From contig JAIOPN010000017.1 of assembly GCA_021413865.1 (NCBI GenBank), forward strand, positions 1-64,000: a DNA stretch of 64,000 nucleotides. Reading direction: 5' to 3'. Numbering within the stretch: position 1 is the first letter of the stretch; the number at the start of each line of letters is the position of its first letter. Below are positions 6,236 to 16,465 of this stretch, in pieces. The notes under the pieces were generated by a model, which was not told where the DNA came from, did not search any database, and was given only the letters and a program-made list of their open reading frames with translations. The position numbers and the translations under genes are program-made. The DNA comes from Planctomycetota bacterium (GTDB lineage: Bacteria; Planctomycetota; Phycisphaerae; Phycisphaerales; Phycisphaeraceae).

Positions 6236-7330
6236 TCAGCTTTTCACGGCCGCGGCACGGATGGCGTCGAGGTCGGGCGGCACGAACCCGCTGCGGATCG
6301 TCCCCGACGGTGTTACAGAGCTCTTCCAGTCGCACGGGTGTGCGGCGGCCCCGAGATAGAAATCATTGGCGTAGAGCTCCTCGATGCGTTTGAGCACCGC
6401 CTGCGGCAGCGCGGGCATGTCGCACGCGGCGGCGAACTCACGCACGTCGGCCTCGGAGAGCAGGTTCGGCTCGACCGACACCAGCGTCGGGAAGCTCGCC
6501 AGCCAGCGGAAGGAGAGCTGGCGGATCGACATGCCCAGCCCCTGCGCGAGGCTCCGGATCATGTCGTTCTTCTTCAGGCCGTAAACGAGCCAGTTCTTGT
6601 CGCGGAACTTGCGGTGGTCCTGCTCGGAAAACTTGTGGTCGGGTGAGATGAACTCCTCGTCGAGGATGCCCGAGTTGGTCGGCACGCGCGCGATGACGCC
6701 GCCCCTCCCGCACGCCTGAGCGACCATGCAGAACTCGCGCCCCGGGTCTTGCTCGTACATGTTGAAGACGGTCTGCACCACAGCCGCGCCGTGGTCGGTG
6801 AAGGCACGGATGCCCTCCTCACGCCAGCCGATCGCCGGGCCAAGGGCGACACCCCAGTGCCTGATTTTCCCCTCGTCGGCGAGCCGGTCCATCAGGTCGA
6901 TCAGGTCGTCGCGGAACTGCGGGAGCTTGAGGTTGTGCGCCTGCACGAGGTCGAGGCTGTCGATGCCCAGACGCTCGAGGGATTTCTCGACGTCGTAGCG
7001 GACGAAGGCGGGCGAGAAGTCCTGCCGACGCTCCTTGTGGCCGCCCTGCTCGCCGGGGTCGGAGTAGAAGTCGTAGCCGTACTTGGAGGAGATGACCAGG
7101 TTGTCGCGGCCCGCGTAGCGGATGGTCTGCGCCAGGAGTAGCTCGGCGCGGCCGTTTCCGTAGGCGGCGGCGGAGTCGAAGAAGTTGACGCCCAGGTCGA
7201 ACGCCCTGTTCTGGAGGGCGACGCCCTGCTCGTCCGAGAAGTCGCCCCACCAATTGGTGCCGAAGACGAAGTTGCCGAACCCCAGCAGGCTGACCCTCAG
7301 GTCGGTGCCGGGGATGATGCGGTATTCCAT
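6236..7330 (-). CDS. aldo/keto reductase
   Basis: A 364-residue NADPH-dependent oxidoreductase of the aldo/keto reductase fold. Visible catalytic-site landmarks are NFFDSAAAYGNGRAE (Asp and Tyr), VISSKYGYD (Lys) and VQAHNLK (His), in the usual order, with the NADP-binding half following. These enzymes reduce carbonyls of sugars or related metabolites; the specificity cannot be predicted. It sits 17 bp downstream of the 1001-residue TPR gene on the same strand, so it may be the last gene of that long minus-strand operon, although its function does not obviously fit there. No clear ribosome site precedes the ATG. Confidence 0.9.
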   Translation of the reverse strand: MEYRIIPGTDLRVSLLGFGNFVFGTNWWGDFSDEQGVALQNRAFDLGVNFFDSAAAYGNGRAELLLAQTIRYAGRDNLVISSKYGYDFYSDPGEQGGHKERRQDFSPAFVRYDVEKSLERLGIDSLDLVQAHNLKLPQFRDDLIDLMDRLADEGKIRHWGVALGPAIGWREEGIRAFTDHGAAVVQTVFNMYEQDPGREFCMVAQACGRGGVIARVPTNSGILDEEFISPDHKFSEQDHRKFRDKNWLVYGLKKNDMIRSLAQGLGMSIRQLSFRWLASFPTLVSVEPNLLSEADVREFAAACDMPALPQAVLKRIEELYANDFYLGAAAHPCDWKSSVTPSGTIRSGFVPPDLDAIRAAAVKS

Positions 7331-7347: not shown

Positions 7348-10300
7348 TCAGGGGTTCTTGGGCTTGTCGGTCTTGGGGGGCGGCGGGGCCGCAACGGTGG
7401 CTTCCAAACCGGCGTACTTGGCGCGCAGGCGGCTGAGCTCGGTCTTGTAGCGGTCGCCGCCGAGGTTGGTATCGACACCCTCGAGTTGACGCACCTTGAG
7501 GGGGATGTCCTCTAGCCCGTGCTGGACGAGGTCGGAGATCTGCAGGCGGCGCATCCAGGCGTTCCACCAGATGTCGGGGTACTTGCCGTTCTCCGCCGGG
7601 ACGCCGGTGATGATGGAGTTGAAGAGCGGGGCCACCTTGTCGTTCATCATAGCGGTGCCCTGGGCCTTGTCCGTCTTGATCAGTTCCTTGGCGATGATAA
7701 ACCGCGCCTCGCCGACCGCGTTGATCAGTTCCCCGTTCTGCGGGAACTTGCCCATCAACGGCTCGATGATCTCCAGTGCGCCCTTGGCGTCGCCGGTGTT
7801 GAGCTTGGCCCGCGCCAGGATCAGGTCAAACGGGAGGAGCCCCTCCGCGTCTTTGCCCCGCTTCGGGTCGGCCGCCCACGTGCGCAGCAGCGTCGCCAGT
7901 TCGGTTTCCGCGACGGATTTTTTCTGCGCCAATTCGAGGAGCCGTTTCCTATCGAAGTCCGCGATGACCGGATTGGCGGCGCGGCCGTTGAGGTCTTCGA
8001 TCTGGCGGTCCACGTCGGTCAGCACCGCGTTGATCACGCCCGCAGCCTGGTCGGGGAAGGCATCCATCATCCGCTTGGCCTCGGCCGTCGCGTCCGCGAG
8101 CTTGTCCACCTTGAAGTGGAACACGATCCTCCGCTCCAGCATCATGCTGATCAACTCCGGATCGGCGTTGAAGTCGCGGTCGAAGCCGTCGAGGTACTTG
8201 AGCGCCTTCTCGATGTTGGCGTCGGCTTCCTTTTCGTTGGTGGCGGGATCGAGTTCCACCGCCATGTCGGCCAGAATGAGGCGCGACCAGCCCGCCGCCT
8301 GGCGGACGGCCACCAGGCGGTCCCCGGCCGCGGCGCCCATGTCACGCTCCGCCTCGTCGCGCACGCGTGTCGCATCCATGACTACGGCGTTGCCGAGCTT
8401 CTTGCGCTCCTCGCGTTCCTTGGCGGCGCGGAAGATGACCTGATCGGTTTCGACCAGCAACCGCTGGGCGGGGTAATAGTCCGCGTGCGCGTTGTGCACC
8501 GCGCGCAGAGCGCTCACCGCTTCGGCGTAGCGCTGCGCCGGAACGAGGACCGAGTTGGCGTAGTAGAACCGCTGGTTATCCGCGGTCTCGGTGGTCGGGT
8601 ATTTCGTCAGCAGCACCTTCATCGCCCGCTCGTACATCTCGGAGACGCCTGGCGGCCTCTGGGGGCGGATGTGCATGGGGAAGAGCAGGCCGGTGATCGC
8701 CCTGTCGATGGCCGTCTCCGCCAGCGCCTGGTCGGGCAACTGCTCGGCCAGGTCCACCAGGATGCCCGCGACCTTGACCCCCACGCCGTCATCGCCCGGA
8801 TCGAGGAAATAACGGGCGTGGGCGAGGTTGAACATCGCCTGGGCCTTGATGCTGTTGGAGAGGTTCGGCCGGGCGAGCAAGTCCGTGTTCACCTTGACCG
8901 AGCGCTCCAGCTTGACGTGGGCCTCTTTGGTGAGCTTCTCGGCCTCGGCGGTGTTGCCCGCGTTGGCCAGGTCCCCCGCACGCATGGCCATTTCCTGGCC
9001 CGCCTGCTCCGAGGTCTCGCCGATGGCGGCCACGACCAGCGCGGGCTCGTCCTTCAGGTCACGGCCCGGCGGGATGCTGGATTCCCACCGCTTGAAGACG
9101 TAGGCCTTGACGATCGGGAGCGCGGCGCCCAGGGCGGGGTCGGCGAATAGCTGCTGGTACGGCTCATACGCGGTGGTCAGGCCCTGCGCGCGTTTGTCCG
9201 CGGGCTGGGCCATGGCGCGGCTGAGCAGGAGCAGGTGCGTCGCATCGACGACCAGGAGGCGGAACGGCAGTTCCTGCCGCGCGAGCCCCTGCGTCTGCGC
9301 GGCGGTCAGCGCGGCGAGCGCCTGGTCGGGCTGCCCCGCTTTTTCGTAGGCATAACCGCGGGCGACGCGGCTGACCAGATCGACCAGGTCGGTCGTATTG
9401 GCATTGATGATTGGATCGAGCAGGTCGGTGGCCTCGTTGATCTTGCCCTGCTGGAGCTTCGCCCGGCCGGCAAGGCTCTGCGAGGGGCGCAGGACGTTGT
9501 TCATGTCGTTCTTGTCGTCGAGGAACTTCTGCAGTTTCTCGACGGCGATGCCGAGCAGGCGGGCGCGTTCCTCCGTGGGGGTCTTACCCTGCACGGCGGC
9601 GGGGATGACGCTGTTCTTGCCCAGGTTGCGGTAGTACGGGTTCGAGTCGGGGAGGAGGGCGACGTAGAAGGCCCCGTAGGCCAGGAAATAAGGCGTTCGC
9701 AGCTCGTTGTACTGCTTGGTGATGCGGTCCCACATCCCGGTGTTGATGACGCGGGCGACGTGGTCCGGCCGGCGCGGCATCTCGCCGATGAGGTCAAAAA
9801 ACCGCCGGTCGGCGTCCGAGAGCTGCTCGAACATTTCCACGGCCGACTTCTCGAACGCCTCGCGCTGCTCGGCCGTCGGCACACCCAGCTCGTAAAACTC
9901 GGCGGCGTTCTGGTTGATCTTCCGGAGGTAGTCGTCGAACAGTTGCTCGGCCAGGTCGGTCTGCCAGAGCGGCCGCAGGTCGTGCTTGGGGTATTTGGCG
10001 ATCAGGTCGCGGCGATCGGTGAGCGACTGGTCGAAGTCCGCCCTGGCCTCTTTACGCAGCGCCTCGATGGCGGCGGCGTCGGGCAGCTTCGCGGCGCGGG
10101 CCCACTTCTGGGAGTAATCGAGCAGGTGCTGGTTGATGAGGACGTGCTTGAGCACCACCGGGTCGGACTTGGGGTCGGCCTGGAGCTTGGTGATCAGGTG
10201 CTTGAGCAGTTCGCCCATTCCCTCCTTGCGGAGGCCCTCGATGAGCATGGTCGGGTCGAGGTTGGAGACCTGTCCATGGGCCTGGGAGACACACGCCGAC

Positions 10301-10353
10301 AGACACAGAAGAGAGATGCCGATGAAGCGGGTGATGCTCGGGCGTGTCTTCAT
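7348..10353 (-). CDS. large secreted TPR-type repeat protein of the ExbBD-VWA operon
   Basis: A 1001-residue protein with an N-terminal signal sequence (MKTRPSITRFIGISLLCLSA, then a cleavage-like AHGQ). The remainder is hydrophilic and almost wholly alpha-helical in composition, with many degenerate TPR-like pairs such as KAGQPDQALAALTAAQTQG and LNTGDAKGALEIIEPLMGKF. No catalytic motif is seen. The C-terminus is charged and ends in a short Pro/Lys stretch. It follows the three ExbD genes with a 62-bp gap, all on the minus strand. A periplasmic scaffold partner of the ExbB/ExbD motor is a reasonable inference, because secreted TPR proteins regularly accompany such operons in planctomycetes. 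Confidence 0.8.
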   Translation of the reverse strand: MKTRPSITRFIGISLLCLSACVSQAHGQVSNLDPTMLIEGLRKEGMGELLKHLITKLQADPKSDPVVLKHVLINQHLLDYSQKWARAAKLPDAAAIEALRKEARADFDQSLTDRRDLIAKYPKHDLRPLWQTDLAEQLFDDYLRKINQNAAEFYELGVPTAEQREAFEKSAVEMFEQLSDADRRFFDLIGEMPRRPDHVARVINTGMWDRITKQYNELRTPYFLAYGAFYVALLPDSNPYYRNLGKNSVIPAAVQGKTPTEERARLLGIAVEKLQKFLDDKNDMNNVLRPSQSLAGRAKLQQGKINEATDLLDPIINANTTDLVDLVSRVARGYAYEKAGQPDQALAALTAAQTQGLARQELPFRLLVVDATHLLLLSRAMAQPADKRAQGLTTAYEPYQQLFADPALGAALPIVKAYVFKRWESSIPPGRDLKDEPALVVAAIGETSEQAGQEMAMRAGDLANAGNTAEAEKLTKEAHVKLERSVKVNTDLLARPNLSNSIKAQAMFNLAHARYFLDPGDDGVGVKVAGILVDLAEQLPDQALAETAIDRAITGLLFPMHIRPQRPPGVSEMYERAMKVLLTKYPTTETADNQRFYYANSVLVPAQRYAEAVSALRAVHNAHADYYPAQRLLVETDQVIFRAAKEREERKKLGNAVVMDATRVRDEAERDMGAAAGDRLVAVRQAAGWSRLILADMAVELDPATNEKEADANIEKALKYLDGFDRDFNADPELISMMLERRIVFHFKVDKLADATAEAKRMMDAFPDQAAGVINAVLTDVDRQIEDLNGRAANPVIADFDRKRLLELAQKKSVAETELATLLRTWAADPKRGKDAEGLLPFDLILARAKLNTGDAKGALEIIEPLMGKFPQNGELINAVGEARFIIAKELIKTDKAQGTAMMNDKVAPLFNSIITGVPAENGKYPDIWWNAWMRRLQISDLVQHGLEDIPLKVRQLEGVDTNLGGDRYKTELSRLRAKYAGLEATVAAPPPPKTDKPKNP

Positions 10354-10415: not shown

Positions 10416-11015
10416 TCAGCCGCCGGAGCGGGAGAAGCTGATGTCGGAGTAGCGGGCGGAGATGGCTGCGTTGAAAGCGTTGACCACGTGCTGCCAGCGG
10501 ACCTCGCCGTCGGGCTTGATGATCACGGGGTTGTCGGGCTTGTAAGGCCCGGTGAAGCCGCGGGAGGGATCGGATTGCATCTGGTTGAGCTGCGTCTGGA
10601 GTTCCGTGAAGTCCCGCGTGGAGTTCATGGAGCCCTCGATGTTGACGCTGTAACTGTCGCCCGCGGAAGCGACATTAATGACGATGGGGTTCTTGGGGAT
10701 TTCGGCGACCGGCGCCCCGCCGGTGCCGCCGGAGCCCGAGGCGGGGAGCTTGGCGGTCAGGACGCCCTCGCCCACGGCGAAATTGGCGGTGAGGATAAAG
10801 AAGATCAGGATGTTGAAGGCCATGTCGAGCATGGCGACGAGGTTGAGGGTGATCTCGTTGCGCTCGAGGCGTTTGGGACGCTTGCGTGGCGTCTCTTCGA
10901 TGCGGGTCGCCGGGACAGCGAACGGATCGGGCGGTGCGGCTGCGGCGGTCGGCGGCGGCGCGGCGCCCGGATTGGGGGTTGGGCGGGGTTTCGGGTTGTT
11001 GGTTTCGTCGGCCAT
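10416..11015 (-). CDS. ExbD/TolR family biopolymer transport protein (copy 1)
   Basis: A 199-residue ExbD/TolR-type protein. A Pro/Ala-rich cytoplasmic N-terminus of about 55 residues precedes RNEITLNLVAMLDMAFNILIFFIL, cut here by family convention into the membrane helix; Asp64 in it aligns with the proton-carrying aspartate of E. coli ExbD (Asp25). The periplasmic domain contains PNNPV-like strands and ends in WQHVVNAFNAAISARYSDIS, typical of the ExbD C-terminal fold. It is a close tandem paralogue of the next gene (shared MADET start, NEITLNLVAMLDMAF and NAFNAAISARYSDISF). With ExbB it would form an inner-membrane proton-driven motor. The longer N-terminus distinguishes it from copy 2. Confidence 0.93.
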   Translation of the reverse strand: MADETNNPKPRPTPNPGAAPPPTAAAAPPDPFAVPATRIEETPRKRPKRLERNEITLNLVAMLDMAFNILIFFILTANFAVGEGVLTAKLPASGSGGTGGAPVAEIPKNPIVINVASAGDSYSVNIEGSMNSTRDFTELQTQLNQMQSDPSRGFTGPYKPDNPVIIKPDGEVRWQHVVNAFNAAISARYSDISFSRSGG

Positions 11016-11054
11016 GTTCGTGATTCGTGTTTTGCTTGACGGGATGATCGGGGT

Positions 11055-11645
11055 TTAGTGCGAGACCTCTACGATGCTGTAACCGTTCCCATCGCCGGCG
11101 TCGGCCACCGTGACCACGACCGGCGAGGCCAGCCCGCCCCGGCTCACCGGGTCGCGGCTGGCGGCGAAGCTGATGTCAGAATAGCGGGCGGAGATGGCGG
11201 CGTTGAAGGCGTTAACGACGTGCTGCCACCGGACCCCGCCATCGGACCTAATGACGACGGGGTTGTCGGACTTGTACGCGCCGGCCCGGCCGTGCGCGGG
11301 GTCGGACTGCATCTGGCTAAGTTGGGACTGGAGCTCGGTGAAGTCGCGCGTCGAGGCAACGGAGCCCTCGATGTTGAGGTTGTAGCCCCCGGAGCCCGCG
11401 GAGGAGACGTTGATGACTATGGGATTCTTGGGGATCTCCCGCGCCTTGGTGAGGAGAATCTCGGGGTCGGGCGGTTCCGGGAGCTTGGCGGTCAGCACAC
11501 CCTCGCCGGCGGCGAAGTTGGCGGTGAGGATGAAGAAGATCAGGATGTTGAAGGCCATATCAAGCATGGCGACGAGGTTGAGGGTGATTTCGTTGCGCTC
11601 GCCGCGTTTGCGGCGGGGTTTCGTGTTGTCGGTTTCGTCGGCCAT
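11055..11645 (-). CDS. ExbD/TolR family biopolymer transport protein (copy 2)
   Basis: A 196-residue ExbD/TolR protein. The start is placed at 11645 (MADETDN), because it matches copy 1 and has GGAAGG eight bases upstream; the frame is open further to 11726 but that stretch overlaps the preceding stop. The single membrane helix carries Asp29 in NLVAMLDMAFNILIFF, the expected proton-translocating residue. The periplasmic domain matches copy 1 through most of its length (ARYSDISFA), then adds a C-terminal extension of about 30 residues ending in VEVSH that copy 1 lacks. Together the copies suggest a gene duplication inside the operon and possibly hetero-oligomeric ExbD pairs in the motor. Confidence 0.92.
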   Translation of the reverse strand: MADETDNTKPRRKRGERNEITLNLVAMLDMAFNILIFFILTANFAAGEGVLTAKLPEPPDPEILLTKAREIPKNPIVINVSSAGSGGYNLNIEGSVASTRDFTELQSQLSQMQSDPAHGRAGAYKSDNPVVIRSDGGVRWQHVVNAFNAAISARYSDISFAASRDPVSRGGLASPVVVTVADAGDGNGYSIVEVSH

Positions 11646-11712
11646 GTTTGTGACCTTCCGGTTTGGTTTGCCCATACCTGACGACGAACCACGCGGGACC
11701 CGGCGGCCGGGT

Positions 11713-12165
11713 TTAGTGCTTATCAACTTCCGCGACGATGTAAACGGTTTTGACCCCCGACTCGGCGATCGCGGTCATGACCGGGTGGACCTGGTCATAC
11801 CGGATGGTCTTGTCGGCACGGAGGCTGATGGTGATGTCCTTGTTGATCGCGACTTCCTTGGCCAGTTGCGCGGTGATCAGGCCCATCTGCTCCAGCGTGT
11901 AGGGCTTGCCCGCGAAGAGCAGGCCTCCCGCCTCGCCCGTGCCGCCCGGGACGGGCACGATGTTGACCACGAGCTTGGAGGAGAGGTCGGCCTTGCTGTT
12001 GGCCTTCGAGCCGTCGGGGTGGGGCGAGACCACTTCCTTGGGCAGGTCGGCGGTGGAGTAGTTGGTGATGAGGATGAAGAACATGATGAGATTGAGCACC
12101 ACGTCCAACATCGCGGTGATGTTCAACTCGGGTTTGGATCGCGTGATCTTGGGTCTTCTGGCCAT
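11713..12165 (-). CDS. ExbD/TolR family biopolymer transport protein (copy 3)
   Basis: A 150-residue ExbD/TolR protein, nearest to the ExbB gene and the most compact of the three. The N-terminus is short (MARRPKITRSKPELNITAML), and Asp21 in TAMLDVVLNLIMFF is the conserved membrane aspartate. The periplasmic part ends in VMTAIAESGVKTVYIVAEV, the standard ExbD closing strands. It is clearly more distant from copies 1 and 2 than they are from each other. The 42-bp gap from the ExbB stop-to-start junction and common strand support co-transcription. This copy is the best candidate for the ancestral partner of the channel protein. Confidence 0.93.
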   Translation of the reverse strand: MARRPKITRSKPELNITAMLDVVLNLIMFFILITNYSTADLPKEVVSPHPDGSKANSKADLSSKLVVNIVPVPGGTGEAGGLLFAGKPYTLEQMGLITAQLAKEVAINKDITISLRADKTIRYDQVHPVMTAIAESGVKTVYIVAEVDKH

Positions 12166-12207
12166 GTCGGGCTTTCGGCCTGGTGGCGGTCGGGATGAAC
12201 CCGGGGG

Positions 12208-12930
12208 TTATTTCCGGCCCGGCGCGGGGCGGAACGGGCGGATGAGGTCCATGACCTTGGCGAGGCTTTCCTCGGTGAGGCCTTCCGTCTTGGAGCGGAG
12301 CATGCCGTACGCGAGCACGGCGGGGATGGCGACGATCAGGCCCCAGAAGGTGGAGACGAGGGCCGCGGAGATACCACCGGCGAGTTCCTCGGGCTTGGGC
12401 GCTCCGCCCGCGGAGGCCATCGCGAAGAACGAGTTGATCATGCCGTACACCGTGCCGAACAGGCCGACCATCGGCCCCAGGGCGCCGAAGATGTTGAGGA
12501 CTTCCATGCCGCGGATCTGCACGGCGCTGCCGGTGAAGGCGGCCTCCTCGGCGGAGTCACGCATGGCGCTGAAGCCGTGCGGCGCCTGGCTGAGCGCCGA
12601 GTGCATGATCTTGGCGAACATCGAGCGATCGGTGTGGCAGAGGTCGATGACCTCCTTGTATTTTTTCTCGGCCAGGAGTTGCTCGACCTGCGTGACCGTT
12701 TCCTCGGGGAGCATGACGCTCTTGCGGACGGCCATGCTGTTCTTCACGATCAGCGCGACGCCGACCATGGAGAGCAGGATGGTGCTCCAGATCAGGATGT
12801 TGCCGAACATGTCGCGGGAGAAGAAGAACTGGGGAATGAGGCTCTTGTGGGTGCCTTCCTGGGCCATGGCGGGCGAGGCGAGCAGGGCCAGGGCGAGCAG
12901 GGTGAACAACACGGTGATGCGACGAAGCAT
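12208..12930 (-). CDS. MotA/TolQ/ExbB proton channel family protein
   Basis: A 240-residue ExbB/TolQ-type channel subunit. It begins with a signal-like hydrophobic segment (MLRRITVLFTLLALALLASP...AQ), as many planctomycete and gammaproteobacterial ExbB variants do, followed by three membrane helices: FGNILIWSTILLSMVGVALI, LNIFGALGPMVGLFGTVYGM and GGISAALVSTFWGLIVAIPA. The last two contain the GLFGTV and ALVSTFWGL signatures of the TolQ/ExbB pore. A strong AAGGAG ribosome site lies five bases before the ATG. It is the only ExbB-type gene seen here although three ExbD genes accompany it. It should form the pentameric channel of a proton-motive-force motor in the inner membrane. Confidence 0.95.
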   Translation of the reverse strand: MLRRITVLFTLLALALLASPAMAQEGTHKSLIPQFFFSRDMFGNILIWSTILLSMVGVALIVKNSMAVRKSVMLPEETVTQVEQLLAEKKYKEVIDLCHTDRSMFAKIMHSALSQAPHGFSAMRDSAEEAAFTGSAVQIRGMEVLNIFGALGPMVGLFGTVYGMINSFFAMASAGGAPKPEELAGGISAALVSTFWGLIVAIPAVLAYGMLRSKTEGLTEESLAKVMDLIRPFRPAPGRK

Positions 12931-12961
12931 AACGGCTCCTTAGGAGGAAGAACGAAAAGGA

Positions 12962-14146
12962 TTACTCGGGCGGGTTCGGTTCGGCGGCGCTGGTCTCTGT
13001 GGGTGCGGCGAGCATCTTGCGGACGGCCTCGATGCGCTTCGTGTAGGCGGGTTCCTGGTCGTCGTCGATCATCAGCGCGGCCTTGGTGAGCAGCTTGGAG
13101 GCCGTCTCGTTGTCGCCCAGCTTGTGGTGGATGTAGGCGGCCTCGACCAGCGACGGCCCGACGTAGGACGAGTTGGGGAAGTAAACCACGACGCTCATGA
13201 AGCTCAGGCCGGCGTCCTTGTACCCGTCCGGCGACCGGGACTTGTCGGCGATGTTCAGCTCCGCGAGGCCGCGCTGAAACAGACGCATGCCCAGCTCGTT
13301 GGTCGGCTTGGAGAGGACCTCGTTCACCTTGGCGCGGGCGGCGTCGAACTCGCCGCGCTGCAGGAGGAGCACGATCTCGTCCGTGCTGCCCTTGAACTGG
13401 TGCGGGAGAACGACCGCGGAAGCCTCCTCCGCGCCACGCGGCGTGGCGGTGGGACGGCCGCCGGTGGAGGGGGGCGGGCTCGATGGAGTAGATGTACCGG
13501 TGCGGGTTCCGCTTGGCGCGGGCGCCTCCGTGGTCTCGGTCGCGGGCGGCGCGACGGCGCTCACGAGTTTTTTTACGGCCGCGGCGCCGGTCTCATCGAG
13601 AGAAGGGATCGCCTGCTGCAGACGCTTGATGAGCTCCGCCCGCTTGGCCGCCGGCGCCGTGTTCAGCGATGCGATGGGCAGCGGGTCGGGGATCAGCCCG
13701 GCCTGCGGCTTCTCGCGAAGGAGCGTGAGGGTCGTGTCCACGGCCTCGGCGGGCTTGTTGAGGCGGTCCAGAGCGCCGACCATCAGCCGCATCGTCCAGT
13801 GACGCAGCCACGGCTGCCGCGCGGTGGTGAGCACCTTGCCCAGCGATTCGAGCGCCGCGGCGTCACTGCCGGCGTCGATCGCCGCCTGCGCAACGGCCAG
13901 GTCGGGGTACGTGCTGAGCCGCAGGCCCTGGAGCGACGAGATCGGGCGGTTGACTTCGGTGCCGGCGTTGTTCAGGTAAACGATCTGCCCGTCGACCACG
14001 TTCTGCACGGCGACGTCGTCGATCCACGCCCCGCTGAGCTTGACGGCGTCGGCGCGGGCGTCGGCGAAGGCGAGCATCGCCACGACCGATGCGGCCACCG
14101 CGCCCAGGAGGCGCCGCCGGACGTGTGCTTGCGGGGCGGTCTTCAT
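12962..14146 (-). CDS. periplasmic TPR-like protein of the ExbBD-VWA operon
   Basis: A 394-residue secreted protein: signal sequence at residues 1-32 (LLGAVAASVVAMLAFADARA), a region with a short SH3-like strand pattern (GAWIDDVAVQNVVDGQIVYL), helical repeats, a Thr/Pro/Ser-rich linker at about 205-245, and a second helical repeat block (LLQRGEFDAARAKVNEVLSK). No catalytic residues are apparent. Its ATG overlaps the TGA stop of the upstream VWA gene in a four-base ATGA junction, which strongly implies translational coupling. It lies 31 bp before the ExbB gene. Role inferred: periplasmic adaptor for the VWA/ExbBD apparatus. Confidence 0.8.
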   Translation of the reverse strand: MKTAPQAHVRRRLLGAVAASVVAMLAFADARADAVKLSGAWIDDVAVQNVVDGQIVYLNNAGTEVNRPISSLQGLRLSTYPDLAVAQAAIDAGSDAAALESLGKVLTTARQPWLRHWTMRLMVGALDRLNKPAEAVDTTLTLLREKPQAGLIPDPLPIASLNTAPAAKRAELIKRLQQAIPSLDETGAAAVKKLVSAVAPPATETTEAPAPSGTRTGTSTPSSPPPSTGGRPTATPRGAEEASAVVLPHQFKGSTDEIVLLLQRGEFDAARAKVNEVLSKPTNELGMRLFQRGLAELNIADKSRSPDGYKDAGLSFMSVVVYFPNSSYVGPSLVEAAYIHHKLGDNETASKLLTKAALMIDDDQEPAYTKRIEAVRKMLAAPTETSAAEPNPPE

Positions 14147-15255
14147 TGGATCTGCAGCTCCCTGGCGTCGAGGAACTTGTAGATGCCGCCGCTGCGCGTG
14201 CTGATCAGCTCAAGGGTGCCTTTGAGGTTCTTGGCGACGAGCGGGTCCTGGTAGATGAACTGGATGGTGTTGATCTTCGTGCCGGCGGAGTTGGCGCGTT
14301 CGATGTCCGCCAGGAGGCGGCGCTGGTCCACCTCGAAGCGGCCGTTGCCGGTGATGTTGTCGGAGAGCACGTAGATGAGCTGGGGCTGGTACTGGAGGGC
14401 GAGCTTGAGGGCCTTGACCGGGTTGGTGCCGCCGCCGGGGATGATGTTGCCCGCGGCCGGGTCGATCCACTCGATGACGCGCTTCTTGGTCTCCGCGTTG
14501 GCGGGCTTGAGGTTACGCGGCGGGACTTCCTTGACGTCGTCGCCCTGGAAGAAGATGACGGTGAAGGACTGCACCTCGGAGAGCGCGTTGATGGAGCGTT
14601 TGAGCTCGTTGATGACGAAGGGGAGTGTGTCGATGAGCGAGCCCGAGGCGTCGATGAGGTAGATGATTTTCTTGGCGTTGCCGCCGTTGCCGAAGAAGCC
14701 GACGCGCAGGCCGCCGCCGCCGCCCCCGCCGGTCCCTGTGCCAAAGGGGCTGCCCCCCCCGCCGCCAGCGCCGCCGCCGCCGCCGGTGCCGAAACCGATG
14801 ATCATGCTCCCGGGCCCGCCGCCCGAGCCGGGGCCGACGCCCGAACCCTTACCGCCGCCCGTGCCGGTTCCGCCCAGGCCCGCGACGCCCGTCTTACCCG
14901 GCCCCAGGGCCGCGGCGGACGTCGAAGTCGAGCGGGAGAGCTTGGTGGACGCCATGGCCGTCGAGGTGCTCATCCGGCCGGTCATGGGCACGCCGGGGGT
15001 CGCGCTGAAGGTGGAGATGGGGATGATCGGCTCTTCAATCTCGATGTCCAGCTTCTGGACGCTGTTCCACGTCATGAATACCGCCAGCAGGACAATGCCC
15101 AGGTGGAGGAGGATCGAGATGCCCCACGGGGCGAGCGTCTCAAGAAGCAGATTGGCTTCCTCACGGACGGTGGGTTCTTCCTGCCCCTCTTCGACGGGGG
15201 GCTTGCCCTCGGGTAACGCGCCGCTGTTGGGGGTTTGATCTGCAAAACCAAGCAT
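14143..15255 (-). CDS. VWA domain-containing protein with TonB-like membrane anchor (copy 1)
   Basis: A 370-residue protein in three parts. First, a cytoplasmic N-terminus and one membrane helix (PWGISILLHLGIVLLAVFMT) in which Ser47 and His51 form an SxxxH pattern like that of the TonB helix that contacts ExbB/ExbD. Second, an extended Gly/Ser-rich linker at about residues 105-190. Third, a VWA domain with a complete MIDAS: DASGS at 202-206, GGGTNP, and LSDNITG. An AGGAG ribosome site lies eight bases before the ATG. The stop overlaps the next TPR gene by four bases. The layout is like TonB (helix, periplasm-spanning linker, terminal domain) but with a metal-dependent adhesion domain at the end. 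Confidence 0.88.
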   Translation of the reverse strand: MLGFADQTPNSGALPEGKPPVEEGQEEPTVREEANLLLETLAPWGISILLHLGIVLLAVFMTWNSVQKLDIEIEEPIIPISTFSATPGVPMTGRMSTSTAMASTKLSRSTSTSAAALGPGKTGVAGLGGTGTGGGKGSGVGPGSGGGPGSMIIGFGTGGGGGAGGGGGSPFGTGTGGGGGGGLRVGFFGNGGNAKKIIYLIDASGSLIDTLPFVINELKRSINALSEVQSFTVIFFQGDDVKEVPPRNLKPANAETKKRVIEWIDPAAGNIIPGGGTNPVKALKLALQYQPQLIYVLSDNITGNGRFEVDQRRLLADIERANSAGTKINTIQFIYQDPLVAKNLKGTLELISTRSGGIYKFLDARELQIQ

Positions 15256-15382
15256 GGCTTAGCTCCTGCTCACACGCCGCGTCGCGCCCCGTTTCGGCTT
15301 ACGGCGGCACGCGGCATATTCAAACGTAATACGCTGCCCTTGTCCAGCCGGTTTGCGCCCGCGTGCCGTCCGCGGCGCACCG

Positions 15383-16465
15383 TCAGCGGAGATTGAGTTG
15401 TCGATCATCTATGAAAGTATAGACCCCGTTGCTCTCCGCGCTGATCATTTCCATGGTGGCCCGCAGCCCTTTTGCGGCCAGCGGGTCCTGCTGGCGAAAC
15501 TGGATTGTGTTGATCTGTACACCCGTGCGGTTCACCCGGCGGATGTTCGCCAGCAGCCGTTGCTGATCGATCTCGAACCGCTGCGATCCCACGCCGGTGA
15601 TGTTGTCCGACAGCAGGAAGACCAACTGGGGCTTGTAGCTCAACGCCAGTTCCATTGCCTTGAGCGGGTTGGTGCCACCGCCGGGGATAATGTTGCCCGC
15701 GGCCGGATCGATCCATTCTGCGAATTTTTTCTTGGCTTCGGCGTCCGCATGTTTGAGACCAGCGGGCCGTATCTCCTTGACGTCACCCCCCTGGAAGAAG
15801 ATGACGGTAAAGGATTGTGGTTCGCTGAGATTATTGATGGTCCTGCGCAGCTCATGGGTGATGATCTCGAACGAATCGATGAGCGAGCCGGAAGCGTCAA
15901 CGAGGAAAACGATCTTCGTGCCCTTGCCGCCACAGGCGAAGAAGTTCACCTTGAGGCCGCTACCCCCATTGCCGGACCCGCTGCCGAACGGGTTGCTCCC
16001 ATCGCCGCCATTGCCGTTGCCCCCGCCGCCCGGGCCTATCCCGATAATCGGTCCTCCAACCCCGACCCCCGACCCCGGGCCGCTGCCGTTACCGCGCCCG
16101 AAGACCCCGCCCATGTGGCGTCCATCACTCTTCCCGACGCCGCCCGGAGAAGACTGGTACGCCTTCACCGTGCGCGACTGCTTGCCGTAGGACGCAAACT
16201 CGGCAGTCGCCGATGCCGCCGTCATCCGCGGGACGCCCGGCGTGTTGTCGAGTCCGCCCGACATATAAACCGGCCCGACCCCCCCATCGACTGGTTTCTC
16301 AACATTGATGTTGTTCCACGTCAGGAACACCGCCAGCAGGACGATGCCCAGGTGGACCGCCAGCGACAGGCCCCACGGCCCCAGACGCTCCACGGCCCGC
16401 CGGACCTCTTCACGGACAACCATGTCGATGCTCTCGGCGTTCGACGGCGATGGGGCGATGGCCAT
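15383..16465 (-). CDS. VWA domain-containing protein with TonB-like membrane anchor (copy 2)
   Basis: A 360-residue tandem paralogue of the next gene. The start at 16465 (MAIAPSPSNAES) has AAGGAGTG just upstream; the frame extends to 16759 but that part is low-quality and overlaps the divergent oxidoreductase. The membrane helix WGLSLAVHLGIVLLAVFLTW again carries SxxxH (Ser34, His38). A Gly/Asn/Ser-rich linker follows, then the VWA domain with DASGS at 190-194, GGGTNP and LSDNITG, so the metal-binding site looks intact. The VWA halves of the two copies are much more alike than the linkers. It appears to be the first gene of the minus-strand operon; 127 bp separate it from copy 1. Confidence 0.87.
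   Translation of the reverse strand: MAIAPSPSNAESIDMVVREEVRRAVERLGPWGLSLAVHLGIVLLAVFLTWNNINVEKPVDGGVGPVYMSGGLDNTPGVPRMTAASATAEFASYGKQSRTVKAYQSSPGGVGKSDGRHMGGVFGRGNGSGPGSGVGVGGPIIGIGPGGGGNGNGGDGSNPFGSGSGNGGSGLKVNFFACGGKGTKIVFLVDASGSLIDSFEIITHELRRTINNLSEPQSFTVIFFQGGDVKEIRPAGLKHADAEAKKKFAEWIDPAAGNIIPGGGTNPLKAMELALSYKPQLVFLLSDNITGVGSQRFEIDQQRLLANIRRVNRTGVQINTIQFRQQDPLAAKGLRATMEMISAESNGVYTFIDDRQLNLR

Follow-up and report, generated by a model that had tools for sequence, protein, structure and literature searches.

Why should the genes of an ExbB/ExbD-type motor lie beside genes for von Willebrand factor A (VWA) proteins? The question is raised by an operon in a 64,000-nucleotide (nt) stretch of DNA, here called the window, from a Planctomycetota bacterium of the family Phycisphaeraceae (contig JAIOPN010000017.1 of assembly GCA_021413865.1; contig C14 in our numbering). 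The source genome is a 4.37 Mb draft in 67 contigs and is 95% complete. A first-pass annotation, made from the DNA letters, proposed that the motor acts on the VWA domains. Our sequence comparisons support this proposal. The evidence is the Ser-His half of a TonB-like docking motif, the corresponding Ser, Thr pair and Pro of ExbB, the conservation of the operon, and a profile search that found no receptor Plug domain in the source genome. We put the probability of the whole reading, in which an ExbB/TolQ motor drives a Ser-His helix, a linker and a VWA domain, at roughly 75%.

Eight minus-strand genes run from 16465 to 7348, in the order VWA1-VWA2-TPR1-ExbB-ExbDa-ExbDb-ExbDc-TPR2 (TPR, tetratricopeptide repeat; aa, amino acids):

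15383..16465, minus strand: VWA1, 360 aa; TonB-like helix, Gly-rich linker, VWA domain
14143..15255, minus strand: VWA2, 370 aa; architecture as VWA1
12962..14146, minus strand: TPR1; signal peptide, small beta domain of five strands, helical repeats that are partly YbgF/CpoB-like
12208..12930, minus strand: ExbB/TolQ-like motor subunit; Ser54, Thr160, Thr194, Pro203
11713..12165, minus strand: ExbDa, first-position group; Asp21
11055..11645, minus strand: ExbDb, second-position group; Asp29
10416..11015, minus strand: ExbDc, second-position group; Asp64
7348..10353, minus strand: TPR2, secreted repeat protein of 1001 aa; last gene of the conserved operon

From VWA1 to TPR2 the intergenic gaps are 127, -4, 31, 42, 67, 39 and 62 nt. 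The -4 gap is an ATGA coupling, as had been noted before: the VWA2 stop and TPR1 start share 4 nt. Both TPR proteins previously assigned to the operon are present; TPR2 ends at 7348, outside the 10416-16465 span that had been described. In Pfam, the ExbB gene matches MotA_ExbB (1.2e-26) and the three ExbD genes match ExbD (6.3e-15, 1e-16 and 8.6e-18), all above cut-off. Pfam matches of the TPR proteins fall below cut-off, as do those to VWA (21.9 against 23.8 bits) and VWA_3 (22.2 against 27 bits). Hence, the VWA fold was examined by structure prediction.

AlphaFold2 was run on VWA2 with 56 other rows. The prediction has a helix at residues 30-71, block means of 33-52 for the predicted local distance difference test (pLDDT) over residues 71-190, and a VWA domain at residues 191-370 with pLDDT of 84-98. 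The model thus has the TonB-like arrangement of a helix, a disordered linker and a globular end. When the model was searched with Foldseek, ITIH1, alpha2-delta, CMG2 and integrin I domains were within the best 50 PDB matches; the top-ranked chain was from a PDB entry titled B19V capsid. The helix residues lie exactly where the first-pass annotation put them, at Ser34 and His38 of VWA1 (codons 16364-16366 and 16352-16354) and at Ser47 and His51 of VWA2 (codons 15115-15117 and 15103-15105). It had also described a Gly-rich linker and an intact metal ion-dependent adhesion site (MIDAS) in both proteins, and we see the same. The metal site is complete in VWA2 (D202-x-S-x-S206, T277 and D299) and in VWA1 (D190, T265 and D287). 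A Pfam scan found no TonB_C domain on either protein.

How widely is the Ser-x3-His (SxxxH) pattern kept? VWA frames were located with profiles made from the window's own family. Three sets of stretches, from relatives, named records and the phylum, yielded 172 frames, or 156 after duplicates were removed. The 63 named loci were collected by patterns, one containing DASGS, and some of them coincide with records of the relatives. None of the 156 frames was picked by the motif. Of the non-redundant VWA frames, 110 lie no more than 3 kb from ExbB, and 98 of these have SxxxH. The other 12 comprise eight with Ala-xxx-His, one with Met-xxx-His, one lacking the His (a 266-aa frame) and two scored without their N-terminus; one frame scored in that way (L049 10659-11828) was read as SxxxH in another count. 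Among the 46 VWA frames with no ExbB within 3 kb, 34 have SxxxH, six lack the His, two have another residue and four were scored without an N-terminus.

Membrane segments of the operon's other proteins served as controls. SxxxH occurs in 0/140 ExbD, 0/99 ExbB, 0/27 TPR1 and 1/41 TPR2 segments, after exclusion of weak segments (58, 5, 16 and 21, respectively). None of the 306 other hydrophobic segments taken from the 63 named loci has it either, among the matches listed and with spurious frames included. Given the conservation of the pattern and these near-zero controls, we reject a chance origin.

The motor side of the contact was compared with known structures. In Escherichia coli, TonB Ser16 and His20 contact ExbB Ser34 and Trp38, and Trp38 contacts Pro190; the same contacts link TolA Ser18 and His22 to TolQ Ser28 and Trp32 (PMC12215075, in the portion available). 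We aligned 101 ExbBs from the fetched stretches with E. coli ExbB and TolQ. The ExbB Ser34/TolQ Ser28 position (Ser54 in the window) is Ser in 99/101 sequences, with one Ala and one gap. An earlier 104-row alignment, which included the source genome's three ExbB-type loci without VWA genes, gave 101 Ser, two Ala and one gap. Both positions of the pore Thr pair (Thr160 and Thr194) are Thr in all 99 ungapped ExbBs, and the Pro position (Pro203) is Pro in 97/99. The window's ExbB matches TolQ better than ExbB, both in NCBIfam (1.4e-17 against 1.8e-14, each far below the model cut-off) and in a PDB search (7.8e-12 against 1.1e-10). By eye, its N-terminus has a signal-like stretch.

How, then, might the parts work together? 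Docking of the helix, a 5:2 motor and the transmission of force are proposed here by analogy with the E. coli Ton and Tol structures; the 5:2 stoichiometry is adopted from the account of those structures in the available part of PMC12215075. A proton-driven ExbB/TolQ pentamer would enclose a pair of dissimilar ExbDs at its core. At the motor rim would sit the TonB/TolA-like helix, its Ser-His face against helix 1 of ExbB. Protons passing the Thr/Asp pore would produce force or movement along the disordered Gly-rich linker, and so reach the periplasmic VWA domain. That domain might grip a partner by its metal site or by another face. It might do so at the inner face of the outer membrane, at the wall or on the secreted TPR proteins that the operon encodes.

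Several observations weigh against a motor-driven VWA arm. Eight of the 110 ExbB-near frames carry Ala instead of Ser. Since 34 of the 46 ExbB-distant frames also have SxxxH, the motif marks the protein family and not adjacency to the motor. The full SHLS motif is Ser-x3-His-x6-Leu-x3-Ser, and its Leu-Ser half is described as less well conserved for Ton in the accessible text of PMC12215075. In E. coli TonB and TolA the Leu is at His+7 and the second Ser at His+11. The VWA family has not retained this half. In a 57-row alignment (A2), the five commonest residues at His+7 are Ala (35), Gly (11), Val (4), Met (2) and Leu (2); position His+11 is Val in 28 rows, Thr in 17, Ala in 8, Gly in 3 and Ile in 1, and Ser in 0/57. 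The VWA helix has Trp residues of its own, at His-7 in 49/57 rows and at His+12 in 46/57. Rows of A2 from the named loci were picked by an [SA]xxxH pattern, so the Ser/His invariance and His-centred column counts in A2 are partly built in. On the motor side, the ExbB Trp38/TolQ Trp32 position is replaced in at least 99/101 ExbBs (Ile 36, Val 32, Leu 16, Met 9, Phe 3, Ala 3) and is Val58 in the window. Because neither this Trp nor the SHLS Leu and last Ser are kept, the helix-ExbB contact must differ in detail from that of Ton and Tol. The metal site is relaxed across the family: DxSxS with Thr/Ser and Asp is found in 24/57 rows and the strict form in 8/57. Lastly, the available part of the paper that proposed such transducers (PMC12204202) reports no deletion phenotype. 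The missing Leu-x3-Ser half is not disqualifying, because PMC12204202 ascribes the SHLS helix to 'many' vWA proteins and PMC12215075 calls that half 'less well conserved', in the parts available of each.

Some simpler statements did not survive. An intact MIDAS holds only partly as a family-wide trait, given the row counts above. Loss of the ExbB Trp is not a hallmark of VWA motors; the three other ExbB-type proteins of the source genome also lack it. Operons that keep their layout and lack the Ser were sought among homologues, and there are three (L039, L053 and L238). All VWA frames found in them have Ala for Ser, and all retain the His.

A system of this kind has been proposed before. Williams-Jones et al. 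(2025, Mol Biol Evol, June; PMC12204202) suggested motor-driven inner-membrane vWA force transducers of unknown function, and named Planctomycetes. In the available text, many vWA proteins are said to have an SHLS helix and a disordered linker, with tolQ-like, paired tolR-like and TPR genes as neighbours. In the AlphaFold3 models given there, the helix docks through its His at the edge of the motor. By that published description, our operon shares the Ser-His helix, disordered linker, vWA end, tolQ-like gene, dissimilar tolR-like pair and TPR gene. In the predicted VWA2 model, as in those transducers, a linker of ~100 residues leads to the vWA fold. The two differ in gene order: in the PVC group the published vWA gene is described as following the TPR and tolQ genes and the tolR pair, whereas here the VWA genes come first. 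Further differences are that in our operon a second TPR gene (1001 aa) ends the series, VWA and one ExbD are duplicated, and just the Ser-His half of the published SHLS motif is retained. The same paper's TPH-vWA/TolQ pairs, as far as its accessible part describes them, also have a membrane-anchored vWA protein adjoining a tolQ-like gene. They lack the Ser-His and a neighbouring ExbD, and their vWA helix itself supplies the pore Asp, whereas our operon has ExbDs and the Ser-His.

Among open-licence articles in PubMed Central, judged by titles and abstract openings, no description of such a system beyond PMC12204202 was found. The available text of PMC12905483 has 0 occurrences of 'vwa' or 'von willebrand', and that of PMC12505986 has 0 of 'vwa'. 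The operon is a well-conserved member of a class already published as a proposal. Added here are its distribution, the motor-side match, loss of the SHLS Leu-Ser half and of the ExbB Trp, and the orthology of the ExbDs.

That orthology bears on the 'three ExbDs' of the first-pass annotation. Three genes are indeed present, and the membrane Asp is read from each, as had been claimed (Asp21 in ExbDa, Asp29 in ExbDb, Asp64 in ExbDc). As a set they amount to two genes and one recent duplicate. A quick ExbD tree of 76 rows separates first-position proteins from second- and third-position ones (fork support 67; 37 of 73 inner branches are open). ExbDb and ExbDc are sisters with a support of 100 in the Shimodaira-Hasegawa-like approximate likelihood ratio test (SH-aLRT), and are 74% identical across 142 columns. 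On this tree and identity they are recent duplicates. A 'three-ExbD motor' of special stoichiometry is not supported, as the tree gives a dissimilar pair plus a recent duplicate. VWA1 and VWA2 are likewise sisters among 55 rows (SH-aLRT 99). This placement does not support an ancient pair; by the same sequence comparison, the two are a local duplicate. The ancestral set likely comprised one VWA, TPR1, ExbB, two dissimilar ExbDs and TPR2. A strict Asp pattern is met by 174/198 ExbD frames, and ~15 of the 24 misses have the Asp by eye. The ExbD-like gene at L087 9131-9664 (genome G037) has none. It adjoins a VWA gene, its helix reads TALLALAFVL, and the nearest ExbB is ~7 kb off; its product is possibly a non-conducting relative.

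The order-level sample held 41 Phycisphaerales genomes, the source genome and 40 relatives, of which 34 are at least 90% complete and several incomplete. VWA2 homologues occur in all 41 (some matches cover the VWA domain only). VWA adjoins ExbB in 34/41 genomes at the first loci mapped, with profiles built for this work, and in six more at second loci (G025, G030, G031, G034, G036 and G038). A survey of co-occurrence had been suggested as a check; here VWA and ExbB are neighbours in 40/41 genomes. At the second locus of G031 a clear VWA helix was not readable. In G024 the operon is split, with the VWA pair on contig L043 and TPR1-ExbB-ExbD-ExbD-ExbD-TPR2 on contig L274. Among the matches listed for named records, ExbB adjoins VWA in 52/63 loci, and the closest VWA loci are from Phycisphaeraceae and other planctomycete metagenome-assembled genomes. 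The complete genome of strain ZRK34 (L115) also has the operon. Across the phylum (244 genomes, completeness at least 90%, up to 9 candidates scored per genome), 205 genomes had a VWA profile match, many of them to the VWA domain only. Of 40 stretches taken from matching genomes, 20 had ExbB together with VWA, and 19/21 VWA frames counted from phylum stretches with ExbB have SxxxH.

Other envelope components were sought in the 41 genomes. ExbD was found in all. TonB_C is present in 16 (15 above cut-off) and Plug in 18, each in 13 of the 34 genomes that are at least 90% complete. One TolB_N profile found nothing in any of the 41, the source genome among them; 3/14 controls were positive, including E. 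coli. OmpA-like wall-binding domains are in 41/41, with matches that include MotB-like proteins, as on contig C4.

Could the motor instead serve a classical TonB in nutrient uptake, the VWA proteins being regulators or plain neighbours? A classical TonB elsewhere in the genome does exist: L105 11884-12810, on contig C23, encodes a TonB_C protein (52.4 bits) with an SxxxH helix of its own (ISTLTH). No ExbB or ExbD was found within the 20-kb stretch around it, so the operon's motor might be shared. With this TonB and the three Ala-for-Ser operons, the refuting conditions named in the first-pass annotation gave a mixed outcome. With TonB-ExbB-ExbD the operon has in common the motor subunits, the helix Ser-x3-His and a periplasmic linker. 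It differs in VWA proteins that lack TonB_C, in the lack of a detected Plug in the source genome, and in an ExbB that has not retained Trp38. Moreover, VWA2 homologues are more widespread than TonB_C or Plug, the genome has further ExbB-type loci (C47, C3 and C60) and a MotA-like locus (C4), and the docking motif sits on the VWA protein itself. We consider an uptake role for this motor quite improbable. Two other explanations are special cases of a motor-driven VWA transducer. One is a Tol-Pal-like envelope system, with VWA in the place of TolA, TPR1 and TPR2 acting in linkage of the outer membrane and wall, and no TolB. The operon shares with Tol-Pal its TolQ-like best matches, in both searches, a TolA-like topology and a TPR partner with a YbgF-like part; it differs in having VWA in place of the TolA end. 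The missing TolB_N and the universal OmpA-like domains fit. So does TPR1, part of which aligns over 124 columns with YbgF of Xanthomonas (TM-score on the target, 0.74), but YbgF stands at rank 33 among many TPR matches, with an E-value of 0.018. Furthermore, the OmpA matches include MotB-like proteins, the operon has no Pal or TolB-like gene, and the absence of TolB comes from one profile. A Tol-like role is possible, and we hold it tentatively.

The other special case is a machine for surface adhesion or for movement of a gliding type, whose motor would shift VWA adhesion domains or display them. The Agl-Glt gliding machinery of Myxococcus is alike by description: its motor belongs to the same superfamily, and it includes TonB-like and TPR components as well as a VWA adhesin, CglB. 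The VWA fold and intact metal site of both window proteins accord with adhesion, and the available part of PMC12204202 has its authors suggesting a gliding-like role. Against this, a VWA domain anchored in the inner membrane could act at the surface only through a partner, and most relatives have relaxed metal-site residues; adhesion or gliding seems unlikely here. From presence and absence across genomes we lean towards an envelope-integrity role, because the system occurs in every genome sampled from the order, TolB was detected in not one of them, and only some have receptors for TonB. A more speculative and rather doubtful extension is that, in Phycisphaerales, VWA-ExbBD-TPR is the core trans-envelope motor and took over from Tol-Pal the task of keeping both membranes and the wall joined. 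The dissimilar ExbD pair would be the rotor and the TPR proteins a periplasmic hub. Docking would use a changed contact, the ExbB Trp being gone and the transducer having a conserved Trp 3 residues before the Ser.

If a motor-driven VWA transducer is correct, one planctomycete order has an envelope machine that is powered by protons and whose force arm resembles neither TonB nor TolA; among the genomes sampled, this machine is kept more widely than TonB. The 2025 proposal of vWA force transduction would become testable in a defined operon. The system would also bear on how, in the absence of TolB, planctomycetes keep their outer membrane in place.

The further ExbB-type loci of the source genome have varied partners. 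The C47 ExbB, the one other in this genome with an SxxxH neighbour, keeps the Ser; that of C60 has a neighbour without SxxxH and has Ala. Both speak for the proposed contact, with one case each. The C3 ExbB keeps the Ser, has Ile in place of the Pro, and no partner was seen. The C47 neighbour (L076 9842-13318; C47:102841-106317) is a protein of 1159 aa, encoded directly after TPR-ExbB-ExbD. It has a TonB-like helix (VSLLLH) and a Gly-rich linker of great length, and its toroid-like end matches SQHop cyclase and TED below cut-off. It is perhaps another type of motor-driven arm. In a look for a conserved second system of this kind, no ExbB or SxxxH helix was found on the short stretches that carry its two nearest homologues. 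At C60 (L078 6487-12207), an ExbBD locus includes a TPR protein of 901 aa and a protein of 642 aa that lacks SxxxH; the latter has a CBM9-like domain and also matches an FHA-type domain weakly. Large TPR proteins adjoin three ExbBD sets of the source genome (C14, C47 and C60).

Of the operon's own TPR proteins, TPR1 was also modelled, and the prediction combines a signal-like helix with a beta domain of five strands and a set of helical repeats. Searched as a whole chain, it matches TPR proteins of a generic kind that superpose poorly, and just one has an E-value below 0.001. The TPR1 profile had no match in part of the loci. The window's TPR2 has an LSAC lipobox. A lipoprotein identity for TPR2 was rejected, as just two of the 43 family frames in which a signal was detectable carry a lipobox (52 examined, nine without a signal). 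On the strand of TPR2, 17 nt past its stop, lies an aldo/keto-reductase-like gene (6236-7330 of the window, named by eye), which may be co-transcribed with the operon in this genome.

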